Assembly: GCA_023269615.1 (NCBI GenBank)
Contig: JAHFSY010000007.1
Location: forward strand, 62,001 to 126,000
DNA from: Verrucomicrobiota bacterium
GTDB taxonomy: Bacteria > Verrucomicrobiota > Verrucomicrobiia > JABWAM01
Length of the DNA stretch: 64,000 nucleotides
Direction: 5' to 3'
The notes beneath the pieces are model-generated. The model made no database searches. It saw only the letters and a program-made list of their open reading frames with translations, and was not told the origin of the DNA. Positions 4,614 to 63,971 of the stretch are shown piece after piece. The stretch's first letter is position 1, and each line of letters starts with the position of its first letter. The position numbers and the translations under genes were made by a program.

Positions 4614-4754
4614 CAGGAACTTCCAACATCGAACGTCCAACGTCGAAGGCGGGGACTGACGCCAGGCACAAAATTCCTGATCGTACTCCGTCATTTTTCC
4701 GTCCGCTTCGTTGGACGTTCAAAGTTCGACGTTCGATGTTGGACGTTCCCGCCT
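4614..4754. repeat. AACnnnn heptad repeat, inverted pair (copy 1)
   Basis: The left end reads AACTTCC, AACATCG, AACGTCC, AACGTCG: four units of 7 bases. The right end carries the inverted form (TTGGACG, TTCAAAG, TTCGACG, TTCGATG, TTGGACG). About 80 bases lie between them. The block fills the gap between two convergent genes. Related single tracts are at 49360-49410 and 54346-54400. Confidence 0.8.
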
Positions 4755-17560: not shown

Positions 17561-18838
17561 ATGAACACAATTCTCGTTGGCGGACAGTGGGGTGACGAAG
17601 GCAAGGGGCGGATTATCGACCTTTTGACCGAGCGATCCGACTTCGTCGTGCGGTACCAGGGCGGGAGCAACGCGGGCCATGAGGTGCACATCGAAAAAAA
17701 TGTGTACGTGCTGCACCTCATTCCGTCGGGCATCCTGCACCGGAGCAAGGTATGCCTGATCGGCAACGGCGTGGTGGTGGATCCCGTGGCACTGGTAAAG
17801 GAAATCCGGGGCCTGCGACGCCAGGGAATCCGCGTGACGCCCAAAAACCTCGTTGTCTCGGAAATCGCCCACCTTGTGCTTCCGGGCCACAAGTTGCTCG
17901 ACGAGTTGCGTGAGCATCGCAAAGGCAAAGACAGGATTGGCACCACCAAGCGCGGCATCGGTCCCGCGTATGGCGACAAGGCCGCGCGCACCGGGCTGCG
18001 CGCCCTCGACATGCTCCAGCCCGTCCGCTTCCGCGAAAAACTCAGGGCGAAGGTGACCGAACACAATGCCATCGTGCGCTCGTTCGGGATCAAGCCGCTG
18101 CGCTTCGACAACGTCTGGTCCGAATATCTCAGCGCCGCGCGTTTTCTGCGCCCCTTCATCCGCGACGGCGTTGCGCTGCTGCACGACGCGATGGCGCAGA
18201 AAAAGAAGATCCTCTTCGAGGGCGCACAAGGAACGCTGCTCGATATTGATTTCGGAACCTATCCGTACGTGACTTCGTCCCACCCGACTGCGGGCGGCGC
18301 ATGTGTCGGCAGCGGCGTGCCGCCCACGCGCATTGACCGCGTGGTGGGCGTGATGAAAGCCTACACCACGCGCGTTGGCGAGGGGCCGTTCCCCACGCAG
18401 TACGACCCAAAGCTGGGCTCGGAGATCCAGAAAATTGGCGACGAGTTCGGCCGCACCACGGGGCGCGGACGGCGGTGCGGGTGGTTTGATTCCGTGGTGA
18501 CGCGTTACGCCCAGCGCATCAACGGCATCAATCACATCGCGGTGACGAAGCTCGACGTGCTCGACCACATGTCCGAGCTGAAAATTTGCGTGGCCTACAA
18601 GGATGGAGCGAGGCGTTACAACACCGTGCCGATGGACCTCGACACATTGCGCCGATGCAAGCCTGTGTACCAGACCTACAAAGGCTGGCAGACCTCGACG
18701 AAGCACATCCGCCGGTTCCGCGATCTTCCCAAAAACGCGCGAATTTATCTGAACGCCATCAGCCGCCACACCGGCGCCCCCATCTCAATCGTGTCCGTGG
18801 GCCCGCGGAGGGATGAGACGATTTTTGTCAAAAATTGA
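17561..18838 (+). CDS. purA: adenylosuccinate synthetase
   Basis: The 425-residue enzyme joins IMP and aspartate with GTP in AMP synthesis. It has the phosphate loop GGQWGDEGKGR, RYQGGSNAGHEVH, GTTKRGIGPAYGDK, LFEGAQGTLLDIDFGTYPYVTSS and TRVGEGPFPTQ. The usual NNAGHT is SNAGHE here; the catalytic His is kept. The ATG at 17561 begins exactly at the conserved MNTILVGGQWGDEGKG. A terminator-like hairpin lies immediately before it, and the TGA stop is the first part of a 7-base repeat tract. Confidence 0.95.
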   Translation: MNTILVGGQWGDEGKGRIIDLLTERSDFVVRYQGGSNAGHEVHIEKNVYVLHLIPSGILHRSKVCLIGNGVVVDPVALVKEIRGLRRQGIRVTPKNLVVSEIAHLVLPGHKLLDELREHRKGKDRIGTTKRGIGPAYGDKAARTGLRALDMLQPVRFREKLRAKVTEHNAIVRSFGIKPLRFDNVWSEYLSAARFLRPFIRDGVALLHDAMAQKKKILFEGAQGTLLDIDFGTYPYVTSSHPTAGGACVGSGVPPTRIDRVVGVMKAYTTRVGEGPFPTQYDPKLGSEIQKIGDEFGRTTGRGRRCGWFDSVVTRYAQRINGINHIAVTKLDVLDHMSELKICVAYKDGARRYNTVPMDLDTLRRCKPVYQTYKGWQTSTKHIRRFRDLPKNARIYLNAISRHTGAPISIVSVGPRRDETIFVKN

Positions 18839-18926
18839 GAATTAAGAATGAAGAATTGAGAATTTGATCATAAATCCAAGGGATGCTCCGCATTCTTAAT
18901 TCTTTATTTTTCATTCTTAATTTCTT
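18838..18926. repeat. GAATnnn heptad tract, inverted pair, purA-uppS gap
   Basis: Units GAATTAA, GAATGAA, GAATTGA, GAATTTG start at the purA stop. The inverted set ATTCTTA, ATTCTTT, ATTTTTC, ATTCTTA, ATTTCTT ends at the base before the uppS GTG. The outer 13-base arms are exact inverses (18838-18850 and 18891-18903). Confidence 0.85.
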
Positions 18927-24721: not shown

Positions 24722-24728
24722 GGGGGAG

Positions 24729-24756
24729 AATGAAGAATTAAAAATGAAGAATGCAG
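24729..24756. repeat. AATnnnn heptad tract upstream of iscS-like gene
   Basis: Four units AATGAAG, AATTAAA, AATGAAG, AATGCAG lie directly before the start of the iscS-like gene, in the 142-base gap after iscU. The remaining gap has no gene. Confidence 0.8.
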
Positions 24757-24863
24757 AATTTACCCTGCGCAGGCAAAAAAGGAAATCGCGCTACAGACAA
24801 GGCGGGAGGCACGGCCTTTTCGCAACCGTGTGGCTGCGCGCAATCTCCTGATTTCCAAAACTT

Positions 24864-33161: not shown

Positions 33162-33217
33162 GTCATACGGCCCGCCTACCGTCTCCGAACAGAGCCTCGC
33201 GCAAGGTTTCCGCGGCA

Positions 33218-33252
33218 ATTTTTAACTTTTCATTTTGAATTTTTAATTTCTT
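33218..33252. repeat. A/T-rich heptad tract before mazG
   Basis: Five units of 7 bases (ATTTTTA, ACTTTTC, ATTTTGA, ATTTTTA, ATTTCTT) end six bases before the mazG GTG. The pattern mirrors the tract before uppS, so the upstream regions of both genes are repeat. Confidence 0.75.
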
Positions 33253-42936: not shown

Positions 42937-44736
42937 ATGAAAAACACTCCTCAACGCTCGTCCGTCCCGACCGTGATCGGAATCGAAGGCGGGGCCACGC
43001 ACACGACGATGGTTTTGACCAGCACGCGTGGCAACGTTCTCGGACGCGCGCGAGGCGGGCCTTGCAATCTGCGCCTCCTGCGCGATGCCGAGATTCTTCG
43101 GCTCTGGAAAGAACTCTTCGCACGCCTTGGAGACACCCCGCCCTCCGCCGCCGGCGCTTTTCTCGCGGGATGTCGCACGCGCACCGATGAAGCGCGTGTC
43201 AAAAGATTGTTAAAAAAAATCTGGCCACATGCCGCCTGTGCGGCGGGCAACGACATGCAGTCCGCACTTGCCGCCGCGTTCAGGGCGGGTGACGGCATCA
43301 TCCTGATTTGCGGCACCGGTTCCGCCATCCGCGCGCGGCATGGCAACCGCGAGGTTCACGTGGGCGGATGGGGGCATGTGGGAGGCGACGATGGAAGTGG
43401 TTATTGGATGGGACGCAAGCTGGTGCACCATATCTTTCAATCGTACGATGAACACGGCAAGGCTGACATCCTCGCGCAATCGGCGCTGGCCTTTCTGGGA
43501 TTGAACGTTGTGGAGGAACTGGTGCAGTGGTCGCTCGAGGCACCCAAGGATGAAATCGCGTCGCTCACTCGCGTGCTTTTCCGCCATCACCGGCACCCCG
43601 CCGCGCGTCACATCCTGCTCGAATCCGCGCTGCTGCTGGCCGATGAAGTGGCCCTCGCCGCGCGCAAGGCCGGGTTTCGACCGGGCCACAGGCGTCAACC
43701 CATCCAGGTGGCGGTCAACCCGGGACTCGCAAAACATCAACCTCAATTTCGAAAAATCCTCGCGTTGGCCATCCGCAAAAAGCTTCCGGGCGCAAGGGTG
43801 TTTGTGTGCGAGACCGAGGGCGCGGTCGGCGCGGCGAGGCTCGCCGCGCCATCTCAAATCTCAAATTTCAAATCTCAAATGGGCGTGGATCCAGGGTCCG
43901 CCGCAAGGGTCTCCGGCCGAGGTCTTTCCTCGGCCATGACCGAGCAACGCAACCCGCGCACGTTGGATCTGGACCGTCGCTCGATTCCGCGGCTGGTGCG
44001 CACGATGCTTGACGAGGAATCCCGCACGATCCCCGCGATCCGCACCCAGGCTAAGTCCATCTCGCGGGCGATCACCTGGATCGTGAACGCGTTGAAGCGG
44101 GGTGGCCGTTTGTTTTACATTGGCGCGGGCACGAGTGGTCGCGTGGGCGTGCTCGATGCGTCGGAATGTCCGCCCACGTTTGGATGTGACCCCGAAATGG
44201 TGCAAGGCATCATGGCCGGCGGCTGGCGCGCACTCTATCAATCCATGGAATCGAGCGAGGATGACGCTGATTACGGAAAACAATCCGTGCGCGACCGGGG
44301 CGTTGGCCGCAAGGACGTGCTGGTGGGCATCGCGGCCAGCGGTTCCACGCCGTTTGTATTGGGTGCGCTGGAGGAGGCGCACAGCAAGGGCACAAAAACG
44401 ATTCTGCTCACATTCAATCCAAATTCATCCTTCATCCTTCATCCTTCATCCTTTATCCGCATTGCGATCCCAACGGGGCCGGAAGTGGTGACGGGGTCCA
44501 CGCGGCTGAAGGCAGGCACGGCGACGAAGCTGGTGTTGAACATGTTCACGACAATTTCGATGATCCGTCTTGGAAAAGTGCGCGGCAATCTGATGGTGGA
44601 CCTGGATCCTTCATGCGAAAAATTGCACGATCGGGCCGCGCGGATTTATTCGGCATTGAAAGAGATTCCGCACGATGAGGCGTGGAAGCGGCTGGAGGAG
44701 GCGAAATGGAATCTGAAAAAACTTCTGGGCCGATGA
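42937..44736 (+). CDS. murQ: fused BadF-type amino-sugar kinase (MurK-like) and MurNAc-6-P etherase
   Basis: The 599-residue protein joins two peptidoglycan-recycling enzymes. Residues 1 to about 310 are a BadF/BadG kinase (VIGIEGGATHTT, LICGTGSAIRAR, GGWGHVGGDDGSGYWMGRKL) like Clostridium MurK, which phosphorylates MurNAc and GlcNAc. From Met334 (43936) follows MurQ (FYIGAGTSGRVGVLDASECPPTFG, VVTGSTRLKAGTATKLVLNM), which removes lactate from MurNAc-6-P. A CAAATCT-type heptad tract codes for the linker SQISNFKSQ, and a second tract lies inside MurQ. MurQ lacks its usual C-terminal tail. A hairpin GGCCGAGG-TCTTT-CCTCGGCC precedes Met334, so separate MurQ synthesis is possible. Confidence 0.9.
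   Translation: MKNTPQRSSVPTVIGIEGGATHTTMVLTSTRGNVLGRARGGPCNLRLLRDAEILRLWKELFARLGDTPPSAAGAFLAGCRTRTDEARVKRLLKKIWPHAACAAGNDMQSALAAAFRAGDGIILICGTGSAIRARHGNREVHVGGWGHVGGDDGSGYWMGRKLVHHIFQSYDEHGKADILAQSALAFLGLNVVEELVQWSLEAPKDEIASLTRVLFRHHRHPAARHILLESALLLADEVALAARKAGFRPGHRRQPIQVAVNPGLAKHQPQFRKILALAIRKKLPGARVFVCETEGAVGAARLAAPSQISNFKSQMGVDPGSAARVSGRGLSSAMTEQRNPRTLDLDRRSIPRLVRTMLDEESRTIPAIRTQAKSISRAITWIVNALKRGGRLFYIGAGTSGRVGVLDASECPPTFGCDPEMVQGIMAGGWRALYQSMESSEDDADYGKQSVRDRGVGRKDVLVGIAASGSTPFVLGALEEAHSKGTKTILLTFNPNSSFILHPSSFIRIAIPTGPEVVTGSTRLKAGTATKLVLNMFTTISMIRLGKVRGNLMVDLDPSCEKLHDRAARIYSALKEIPHDEAWKRLEEAKWNLKKLLGR
43851..43880. repeat. heptad tract at the kinase-etherase junction
   Basis: Four 7-base units (ATCTCAA and near copies) read in frame as PSQISNFKSQM. 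They sit at the linker between the two enzymes. Confidence 0.85.
44424..44458. repeat. TTCATCC heptad tract inside the MurQ part
   Basis: Four exact TTCATCC units and one TTTATCC are translated as NSSFILHPSSFI, in the loop after ILLTFNP where other MurQ proteins have a similar-length loop of unrelated sequence. Confidence 0.9.
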
Positions 44737-47507: not shown

Positions 47508-47716
47508 GGTTCACGCAAAGACGCCAAGTCGCAAAGTTTTAGCCACTGAGGGGAAACCCTTGATCCCAACCCCGCCATTTTCTTCGAAGGCTACCTTCGA
47601 AGAAAATGGTGGGGTTGAATGCGGTTCTAAAATCTGCGTCTGTCTGCGTTAATCTGTGGAGGAATCCCGGGACCGAGGGACCTTTGCGCCTTTGCGTCTT
47701 TGCGCGAAACTCTCCG
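47508..47716. repeat. composite repeat with long hairpin (copy 2)
   Basis: ACGCAAAG/ACGCCAAG/TCGCAAAG at left and CTTTGCGC/CTTTGCGT/CTTTGCGC at right flank a hairpin with 23-24-bp arms and one G-T pair (47567-47590 and 47594-47617, loop CTA), then a TCTGCGTCTG/TCTGCGTTAA/TCTGTGG tract (47632-47660). It fills the OsmC-isomerase gap. Confidence 0.85.
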
Positions 47717-49359: not shown

Positions 49360-49410
49360 GCAGGAACTTCCAACATCGAACTTTGAACGTTCAACGTCGA
49401 AGGTGGCGGA
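49360..49410. repeat. AACnnnn heptad tract (copy 2)
   Basis: AACTTCC, AACATCG, AACTTTG, AACGTTC, AACGTCG follow each other with a 7-base period. A CACGGAGG/CACGGAGA tract follows near 49421. Together they fill the lipoprotein-blaI gap of 265 bases. Confidence 0.8.
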
Positions 49411-54226: not shown

Positions 54227-54254
54227 AAGGATGAAGGATGAGGGATGAGGGATG
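54227..54254. repeat. GGATGAn heptad tract after the ankyrin gene
   Basis: Units AAGGATG, AAGGATG, AGGGATG, AGGGATG begin eight bases after the stop codon. It is the reverse-strand form of the TTCATCC tract found inside MurQ. Confidence 0.85.
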
Positions 54255-54310
54255 AATGGGAGCGACTCGGATTGCGGAATTTGAAGAAAGAATCAGTGTT
54301 CGGAATCGGT

Positions 54311-54431
54311 GGCTGATGGCTGAAAGCAGATCGCTCCGCAGCGAGGCAGGAACTTCCAACATCGAACATTGAACGTTCAACTTTGAACACCGGACGGGAT
54401 CGGAATCTGAAAGCTGAAGGCTGAGAGCTGA
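54311..54431. repeat. mixed heptad tracts (CTGA and AACnnnn types)
   Basis: GGCTGAT/GGCTGAA/AGCAGAT is followed by AACTTCC/AACATCG/AACATTG/AACGTTC/AACTTTG (54346-54400) and AATCTGA/AAGCTGA/AGGCTGA/GAGCTGA (54404-54431). Together with the tract at 54227 these fill the 289-base gap, in which I see no gene. Confidence 0.8.
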
Positions 54432-54508
54432 TTGCTTTGCAAGGGCCAGAGCCCCTATAAAGGCGTAACAGCCTTGCAATAACCCTCTTCCAGAGGTACC
54501 TTGCACTA

Positions 54509-55768: not shown

Positions 55769-55998
55769 GAGTCTCACGCAAAGACGCAAAGACGCAAAGA
55801 CTGCCCTTGATCCCAACCGCGCCATTTTGGTTGAAAGCATGGCTTTCAATCAAAATGGCGCGGTTAGATGCCGTTCTGAAATCTGCGTCTGTCTGCGTTA
55901 ATCTGCGGAGAAAATCCGACGGGTGACAGGGCTTGGCGCCTTTGCGTCTCTCGCCTCGCCAAAGCCTACGGCGTAGCGCGGGTTGCGTGAAACTCTCC
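55769..55998. repeat. composite repeat with long hairpin (copy 3)
   Basis: ACGCAAAG units at left (55777-55800) and GCGCCTTTGCGTCTC at right flank a hairpin with 24-bp arms and one G-T pair (55815-55838 and 55842-55865, loop ATG), then TCTGCGTCTG/TCTGCGTTAA/TCTGCGGAGA (55882-55911). It fills the gap between two minus-strand genes. Confidence 0.85.
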
Positions 55999-56749: not shown

Positions 56750-56763
56750 GGGAAGAGGGGGGG

Positions 56764-56812
56764 GACAGGAGACAGGGGTCAGGAGTCAGGAGTCAGAATC
56801 CAGAATGGAGAA
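56764..56812. repeat. GTCAGGA heptad tract at a gene end
   Basis: Seven units follow each other: GACAGGA, GACAGGG, GTCAGGA, GTCAGGA, GTCAGAA, TCCAGAA, TGGAGAA. The tract overlaps the last codons of the gene ending at 56779 and supplies its stop. Confidence 0.9.
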
Positions 56813-62971: not shown

Positions 62972-63006
62972 AATGAAGAATGAAAAATGAAGAATGAGGA
63001 ATGCGG
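62972..63006. repeat. AATGAAG heptad tract before nadC
   Basis: Five units AATGAAG, AATGAAA, AATGAAG, AATGAGG, AATGCGG are followed by looser GCGGAATT pieces to about 63045. The gap of 132 bases before nadC is mostly repeat. Confidence 0.85.
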
Positions 63007-63098: not shown

Positions 63099-63971
63099 AT
63101 GAAATCAAATTTTTTCAAAGAAGTTCGGCATCTGGTTCGAGAGGCGTTGAGGGAGGATCTTGGGCTTTGCGGGGATGTGACTTCGCTGGCAACCGTTTCC
63201 GCCCGATCGCGCTCACTGGCGCGACTTGTTGCGAAGGAGGATGGCGTGCTTTGCGGGGTGACGGTTGCGGTGGAGGCTTTTCGACGGATGGATCGGAATT
63301 CGCGGATCAAGGTTTGTGTCCGCGATGGCGCGCGGGTGCGACGAGGCCAGACTGTTTTGGAGGTGAAGGGGTGCACGCGCGGGATTCTTGTGGCGGAACG
63401 GGTGGCGCTCAATTTTGTCCAGCGGCTGAGCGGGATCGCGACGTTGACCCGCGCGTTCGTCAAAAAATCTCAAATCTCAAATCTCAAATCTCAAATCCTC
63501 GACACGCGGAAGACGACTCCGTTGCTGCGGACGCTGGAAAAATATGCGGTAACTTGCGGCGGTGGGCGTAATCATCGCTCTGGGCTGCATGACATGGTGC
63601 TCATCAAGGACAACCATCTCGCGGCGCTGGCGACGACGACGCGTCATCCGGTTCGCGATGCCGTGCGTCGTGCGCGTGCGATGTGGCCCCGGCTTGTCAT
63701 TGAAGTGGAGTGCGACACGCTCGACCAGGTGCGCGAGGCTGCGGAGTCGGGGGCGTGCATCATCCTGCTCGACAACATGACGCCGGCGCAGTTGCGTCGC
63801 GCGGTGCGGATCGTGGACGGGCGGGCGAAGACGGAGGCATCGGGTGGCGTAAACTTGAAAACCGTGGCGGCCATCGCGCGCACGGGCGTGGATTTTATTT
63901 CGGTTGGAGCGCTCACGCATTCGGCGCGGGCGTTGGATTTTTCGCTGGAGATTGTGCATGAATCCCGATGA
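63099..63971 (+). CDS. nadC: nicotinate-nucleotide pyrophosphorylase (quinolinate phosphoribosyltransferase)
   Basis: The 290-residue enzyme makes nicotinate mononucleotide in NAD synthesis. It has REDLGLCGDVTS, KEDGVLCG, ERVALNFVQRLSGIATLT, ILDTRKTTPLLRTLEKYAVTCGGGRNHRSGLHDMVLIKDNH split over consecutive motifs, IEVECDTLDQ, ILLDNM and EASGGVNL. In the loop before ILDTRKT a CAAATCT heptad tract codes KKSQISNLKSQ in place of a loop of similar length. The ATG at 63099 is used; a GTG lies six bases upstream. The next gene overlaps its end by 14 bases. Confidence 0.94.
   Translation: MKSNFFKEVRHLVREALREDLGLCGDVTSLATVSARSRSLARLVAKEDGVLCGVTVAVEAFRRMDRNSRIKVCVRDGARVRRGQTVLEVKGCTRGILVAERVALNFVQRLSGIATLTRAFVKKSQISNLKSQILDTRKTTPLLRTLEKYAVTCGGGRNHRSGLHDMVLIKDNHLAALATTTRHPVRDAVRRARAMWPRLVIEVECDTLDQVREAAESGACIILLDNMTPAQLRRAVRIVDGRAKTEASGGVNLKTVAAIARTGVDFISVGALTHSARALDFSLEIVHESR
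63471..63498. repeat. CAAATCT heptad tract inside nadC
   Basis: CAAATCT occurs three times, then CAAATCC, preceded by a partial unit. It is read in frame as QISNLKSQI. A related tract with the same peptide is at 43851-43880. Confidence 0.9.

Follow-up and report, generated by a model that had tools for sequence, protein, structure and literature searches.

Here we examined a 64-kb stretch (the window) of a Verrucomicrobiota genome, taken from a 4.48 Mb, 131-contig assembly that is 94.8% complete. Between convergent ilvD-like and TP_methylase genes lies an inverted pair of seven-base (heptad) arrays (4617..4748, no strand assigned), with an AAC arm at 4617-4647 and a GTT arm at 4709-4748, and further period-7 tracts are dispersed along the window. 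Arms like those of the pair also flank three genes (L243, L246, and L249) for S23 proteins, the 23S rRNA intervening-sequence family. The complementary arms could form a stem, and the segment 4606-4760 folds as RNA at -66.4 kcal/mol (z -5.8). We read this pair as an S23-type element without an open reading frame (ORF). More broadly, the seven-base tracts are very probably the ends and ORF-less remains of dispersed small elements that resemble intervening sequences (IVSs), and wherever a family could be matched, its arrays are S23 element ends or copies of such ends.

Period-7 arrays and their families

Scans of the window with Tandem Repeats Finder and, separately, by autocorrelation detected a period-7 tract at each place where a first-pass annotation of the window had reported one. 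Period 7 had 14 segments with a score of 14; the harmonic 14 aside, no other period had more than two, and three Markov shuffles of the window gave no period-7 segments at this score. We then counted periods in 843 kb of this genome, with genes called by a simple script. The non-coding part contained 64 segments of period 7, compared with one of period 6, nine of period 8, and three of period 9, and another 29 period-7 segments lay inside called genes. The excess over neighboring periods that the annotation had anticipated is therefore real, and period 7 likewise stands clearly above the rest in four relatives from the same class. In a fifth genome (G001, from the same family), arrays are too few for a verdict.

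The 93 arrays of the 843-kb sample are not independent repeats. A few shared heptads recur, with AACATCG, AAGAATG, AAGGATG, AACTTCC, and AAATCTC each present in 12-14 arrays. The AAC family, to which the 4617..4748 pair belongs, follows the grammar S-AAC-D-T-Y (SAACDTY), in which AAC and T are constant and the remaining positions are restricted to few letters; this pattern has 49+32 matches in the genome, versus 0+0 for a reversed-pattern control. The same grammar, with an outer end of GAACRTC, also occurs in Desulfobacterota, Lentisphaerota, Planctomycetota, and Verrucomicrobiota. In one genus, the arms are ordered AAC..GTT 15 times and in reverse order twice. Arms within a pair are more alike than permuted arms in the best register (0/1000). 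We did not retain the idea that arms are copied from each other at each locus, as the likeness was only weak when the arms were aligned from the outer end (74/1000), with shared lineage uncontrolled. Some taxa instead have long homogeneous arrays, e.g., (AACATTG)n. Two loci (L002:6572-6711 and L012:10075-10170) are composites of approximately 100-140 bp, made up of several heptad families in succession and in nearly one register.

Arrays were found in convergent, tandem, and divergent gaps as well as within genes, and a role as terminators was rejected on this basis. Conserved genes with in-frame arrays include purL, uvrA, and alaS in another genus and nadC in this genome; from the look of their translations, ksgA, priA, uvrA, and sucC of this genome are similar.

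S23 genes between inverted heptad arrays

Array pairs spaced 390-490 bp apart contain a small ORF, which belongs to the S23 four-helix-bundle family (PF05635; Pfam, above the cut-off). Most S23 genes of five genomes are flanked by inverted heptad arrays, and each gene has its own heptad family. In this genome, for example, the arms are GGATGAA for L248, GAATGAA for L245, CTAGCAG for L235, TAGGCTG for L240, and CGCGGAA for L252, and the families of L248 and L245 are also present in the window. The annotation had suggested that a protein such as a reverse transcriptase (RT), helicase, or repeat-binding protein might accompany the repeats; a linked protein does exist, and it is S23 rather than an RT or helicase. 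S23 proteins occur in 100 of 145 sampled Verrucomicrobiota genomes, and we know of no function for them and of no catalytic domain within them. One relative of this genome's S23 protein has a structure with five chains (PDB 2rld).

We scored this association with a strict test, which a gene passes if a period-7 array lies no more than 220 bp away on either side of it and the two arrays match in inverted orientation. Within Verrucomicrobiota, 21/48 S23 genes passed. The only control genes to pass (4/474) were themselves S23 genes, and therefore 0/470 other genes pass (Fisher p 1.7e-24). Arrays on both sides of S23 genes were again mostly of period 7 (25 cases) or its harmonic 14 (20), with five of period 8 and at most three of any other. 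The association extends to plasmid S23 genes of other phyla (Cyanobacteriota, Chloroflexota, Bacteroidota, Spirochaetota, Gemmatimonadota, and one alphaproteobacterium), of which 17/20 have arrays on both sides and 16/20 pass the strict test, compared with 0/400 for shuffled flanks. The S23 genes of cyanobacterial plasmids (L301, L305, L308, L310, L315) often lie between clustered regularly interspaced short palindromic repeat (CRISPR) genes (cas1/cas2, cas6/cas4, cas10/cmr3). S23 divergence and heptad profile are correlated (Mantel r 0.20, 0/2000 permutations), with related S23 proteins tending toward related heptads. A search of 50,697 phage records with one S23 query gave no match.

ORF-less copies appear to derive from the coding elements. 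The array at 54227 of the window and an ORF-less pair, L017, both carry the 29-bp arm sequence of S23 gene L248 without a mismatch; copies of this kind, which have no ORF but have the ends of a coding element from their own genome, are typical of miniature inverted-repeat transposable elements. Two ORF-less pairs from Desulfobacterota (L026 and L128) retain S23 remnants between SAACDTY arms (E 4e-10 and 0.001). In Azospirillum, an S23 gene with inverted heptad flanks sits within the 23S rRNA gene (Rfam).

Every array of the window is without an S23 ORF. Three tracts resemble the arms of L245, from the same genome. The first is an inverted pair of the GAATKRA family at 18833..18922 (arms 18833-18864 and 18892-18922, no strand assigned), which overlaps the stop codon of the upstream gene and has L245 as its closest S23 arm. 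The second is a single GAATGAA-family arm at 24727..24759 (+ strand, seen by both Tandem Repeats Finder and autocorrelation), which matches an L245 arm with a score above all 100 column-permuted controls. The third is a GAATGAA-family array at 62972..63006 (+), 5 bp 3' of a stop codon, for which L245 is again closest (control p about 0.01). Two arrays are of the L248 type. The TTCATCC array at 44424..44458 (- strand, GGATGAA family) is one of 29 places in the genome with (GGATGAR)x4, a pattern with no matches when reversed, and the AAGGATGAAGGATGAGGGATGAGGGATGA array at 54227..54255 (+), 7 bp 3' of a stop codon, has 29/29 identity to the upstream arm of L248 (G000:C103).

SAACDTY arrays also lie at 49364..49404 (+), beginning GGAACTTCCAACATCGAAC, and at 54350..54388 (+). 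The GTCAGGA-family array at 56761..56812 (+) is closest to L279 (AGGAGTC) from another Verrucomicrobiota genome (control p about 0.02), and the GCTGANN-family array at 54404..54436 (+) is closest to L266 and L270 of other Verrucomicrobiota, not above control. The A/T-rich tract at 33217..33249 (no strand assigned, family uncertain) is the weakest case of those in the annotation, its profile match to S23 arms being no better than control. Period-7 scans also detected a CAAATCT-family array at 43851..43880 (+), and no S23 gene with matching arms was found in this genome. The CAAATCT array at 63465..63497 (+), which the annotation had listed at 63471 among the other tracts, lies in frame inside a nadC-like ORF (QRPTase, nicotinate-nucleotide pyrophosphorylase, by Pfam) and encodes the peptide KSQISNLKSQI. 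This array seems to replace, and not merely lengthen, a segment of the product, with 12 residues before LDTRKTTP; E. coli NadC has about 10 residues at this position. An Rfam scan of the window gave no match.

Slots of this kind also harbor a second class of small genes, those for GxxExxY (PF13366) nucleases. We rejected these genes as carriers of period-7 arrays (0/16); inverted arrays of period 8-10 tend to flank them instead. The window contains arrays of period 8 (ACGCAAAG/CCTTTGCG) and period 10 (AATCTGCGTC) at 47514-47705 and 55776-55907, which are partly inverted, lie around a shared hairpin (CCCTTGATCCCAACC..), and are weaker than those of period 7. Since similar repeats flank GxxExxY genes in this genome (L320, L325), these genes may constitute another class of elements, with periods other than 7.

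Turnover and origin of the arrays

Comparison of sister species indicates that the elements come and go. Between the same two flanking genes, G050 has an S23 element of approximately 600 bp, while G034 has 56 bp and G063 has 23 bp. The slot upstream of alaS is occupied by an S23 element in G050 (L161:9075-9588) and by a GxxExxY nuclease gene in its sister G034 (L283, G034:C163:73346-73816). In three other slots, with flanking genes 88-98% identical, the opposing inverted heptad pairs belong to different families. The annotation's expectation that unit numbers would vary was borne out by length differences of 14 and 21 bp, i.e., of whole units, between orthologous arrays.

We attribute the tracts to S23 elements and their ORF-less derivatives because of the S23 flanking, the exact arm copies, the presence/absence between sister species, and the 23S rRNA case. 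A full element spans approximately 400-600 bp, with about 4-5 heptads (~30 nt), an S23 four-helix-bundle gene, and the same heptads inverted. Each S23 clade tends to have its own heptad family, so that a genome with several S23 lineages shows several unrelated-looking families with one period. This agrees with the annotation's grouping of different-looking families under period 7. Once transcribed, the inverted arms could form a long stem, like the ends of 23S rRNA IVSs. Units are gained and lost in steps of seven, consistent with slippage. The S23 homopentamer may recognize the array in the form of RNA or single-stranded DNA, with each subunit reading roughly one heptad; such a fit would set the period to 7, and ORF-less copies would spread in trans. 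The annotation had raised a protein with a 7-base footprint as a possibility, and a pentameric ring makes such a footprint, at 7 nt per S23 subunit, more plausible. A copying mechanism common to all families, which it had also raised, is putative. The arrays look like the ends of one element class with lineage-specific heptads. The S23 elements are probably selfish.

Several observations weigh against this attribution. About half of the Verrucomicrobiota S23 genes fall below the strict threshold; visual inspection of many of these shows inverted arrays that are degenerate or of period 8. In the assembly that contains the window, we found no S23 gene whose arms are of the SAACDTY or CAAATCT family; SAACDTY is tied to S23 in other genomes only, and CAAATCT only loosely. 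Profile matches between window arrays and S23 arms are often no better than column-permuted controls. Arm length has a median of 5.0 heptads and a wide 10-90% range of 3.9-13.4, so a match of five heptads to five subunits is loose. An empty site was seen, with flanks too diverged to define a target-site duplication. Some G034 and G050 arrays are identical, and therefore turnover is not fast everywhere. Binding of S23 to the arrays and movement of DNA by S23 are putative.

The arrays could alternatively be plain simple-sequence repeats that arose by slippage in place, with a preference for 7 nt stemming from polymerase contacts, as proposed by Mrazek et al. 2007 according to the summary in PMC4679880. 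The heptanucleotide excess is indeed widespread among bacteria (PMC4679880), whole-unit differences of 14 and 21 bp separate orthologous arrays, and the homogeneous runs of some taxa, such as (AACATTG)n, fit this model. We consider it improbable as a full account, because a few families, including exact 29-bp copies, occupy many unlinked loci rather than originating locally and independently, the arms form inverted pairs, the SAACDTY grammar and GAACRTC outer end are shared across phyla, and such flanks occur at none of the 470 ordinary genes versus 21 of the 48 S23 genes. Slippage probably adds and removes units but leaves the remaining features unexplained. The arrays might also be sites for a chromosomal regulator with a 7-bp footprint, which could be a nucleoid protein, a cold-shock protein, or a regulator of translation. 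In Geobacter metallireducens, inverted pairs of hepta- and octanucleotide sites were taken as global regulator sites (PMC2700814), and TAACTGA repeats by start codons as translational sites (PMC4679880). The arrays described here, however, occur in every gene context and in frame within housekeeping genes, one family substitutes for another at the same site in sister species, and the families follow S23 clades, which makes a regulator role highly unlikely.

A last alternative is that an RT or a transposase of the type linked to repetitive extragenic palindromic (REP) sequences, the REP-associated tyrosine transposase (RAYT), produced the arrays. The genome does encode one RT and two Y1_Tnp (RAYT-like) proteins, but no array lies near any of these three genes and the linked gene is S23. 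We rejected both links, and the chance that this explanation is correct is very remote. The lone RT gene (L143, G000:C115), of ~317 aa, is retron-like in appearance and has no arrays close by.

Comparison with known heptad repeats and intervening sequences

The S23 elements most closely resemble 23S rRNA IVSs. In the Coxiella IVS, the S23 ORF is preceded by heptamers in strain-variable number; this IVS also has a 28-bp terminal stem and was described as selfish (PMC4990558); a Xanthomonas S23 protein is homopentameric, as cited in PMC4990558. Both kinds of element thus share a PF05635 ORF, stem-forming terminal inverted repeats, and heptamers adjoining the ORF. In Verrucomicrobiota, however, the examined copies lie between or inside protein genes rather than in rRNA genes, and we therefore call them IVS-like, not IVSs. 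They are also dispersed, with several heptad families per genome, and ORF-less copies greatly outnumber S23 genes. Apart from the heptamers in that one Coxiella IVS, we found no paper among the open-licence literature that ties dispersed heptads to S23 genes, and none of six repeat strings turned up in that literature.

Since 2007, bacteria have been known to carry an excess of 7-nt repeats, which, as summarized in PMC4679880, has been ascribed to polymerase slippage or contacts. The link to S23 offers a concrete, testable reason for how common such repeats are, and a common reading for several repeat families described separately. Binding of S23 to its own heptads, and gain and loss of arrays together with S23, thereby become testable. 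In-frame inserts of conserved proteins (e.g., PurL, UvrA, PriA, and NadC) that lacked an explanation could be read in the same way. As a tentative extension, for which we judge the odds to be somewhat below even, each subunit of a pentameric S23 ring would read one heptad of the array, in RNA or single-stranded DNA (cf. TRAP and its repeats), and the ring would recognize and spread both the element that encodes it and copies without an ORF. A large part of the bacterial heptanucleotide excess, including short tandemly repeated repetitive (STRR) sequences, GGGNATC, TAACTGA, and the Geobacter paired sites, would then consist of S23 ends, and the elements would form a mobile class with repeat-counting end recognition that was not described before.

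The cyanobacterial STRR and GGGGATT heptamers and the Xanthomonas GGGNATC repeats are likewise dispersed heptanucleotide arrays, some inverted (PMC4692102), but were described without an S23 link. The annotation had named the STRR sequences as the nearest parallel, and this comparison proved apt. S23 genes on cyanobacterial plasmids are flanked by inverted heptads as well (those of Planktothrix are of the type AATCCCC), which only suggests that these three repeat families are S23 ends. TAACTGA repeats of Beggiatoaceae, Cyanobacteria, and Bacteroidetes are also seven-base direct repeats with a patchy distribution across phyla (PMC4679880), but were reported mostly as single direct-repeat sets by start codons. 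In Geobacter metallireducens, tandem 7- or 8-mers occur as inverted pairs with variable spacing, together with a further tandem-heptamer family between and within genes (PMC2700814); its paired sites differ in having been read as IHF/HU or regulatory RNA sites. Finally, REP sequences and bacterial interspersed mosaic elements with RAYT transposases are similarly small, dispersed, palindromic, and in some cases located in genes (PMC3733652). In contrast to these, the arrays described here have no RAYT gene beside them, and the ends are heptad arrays instead of a GTAG-tagged hairpin.
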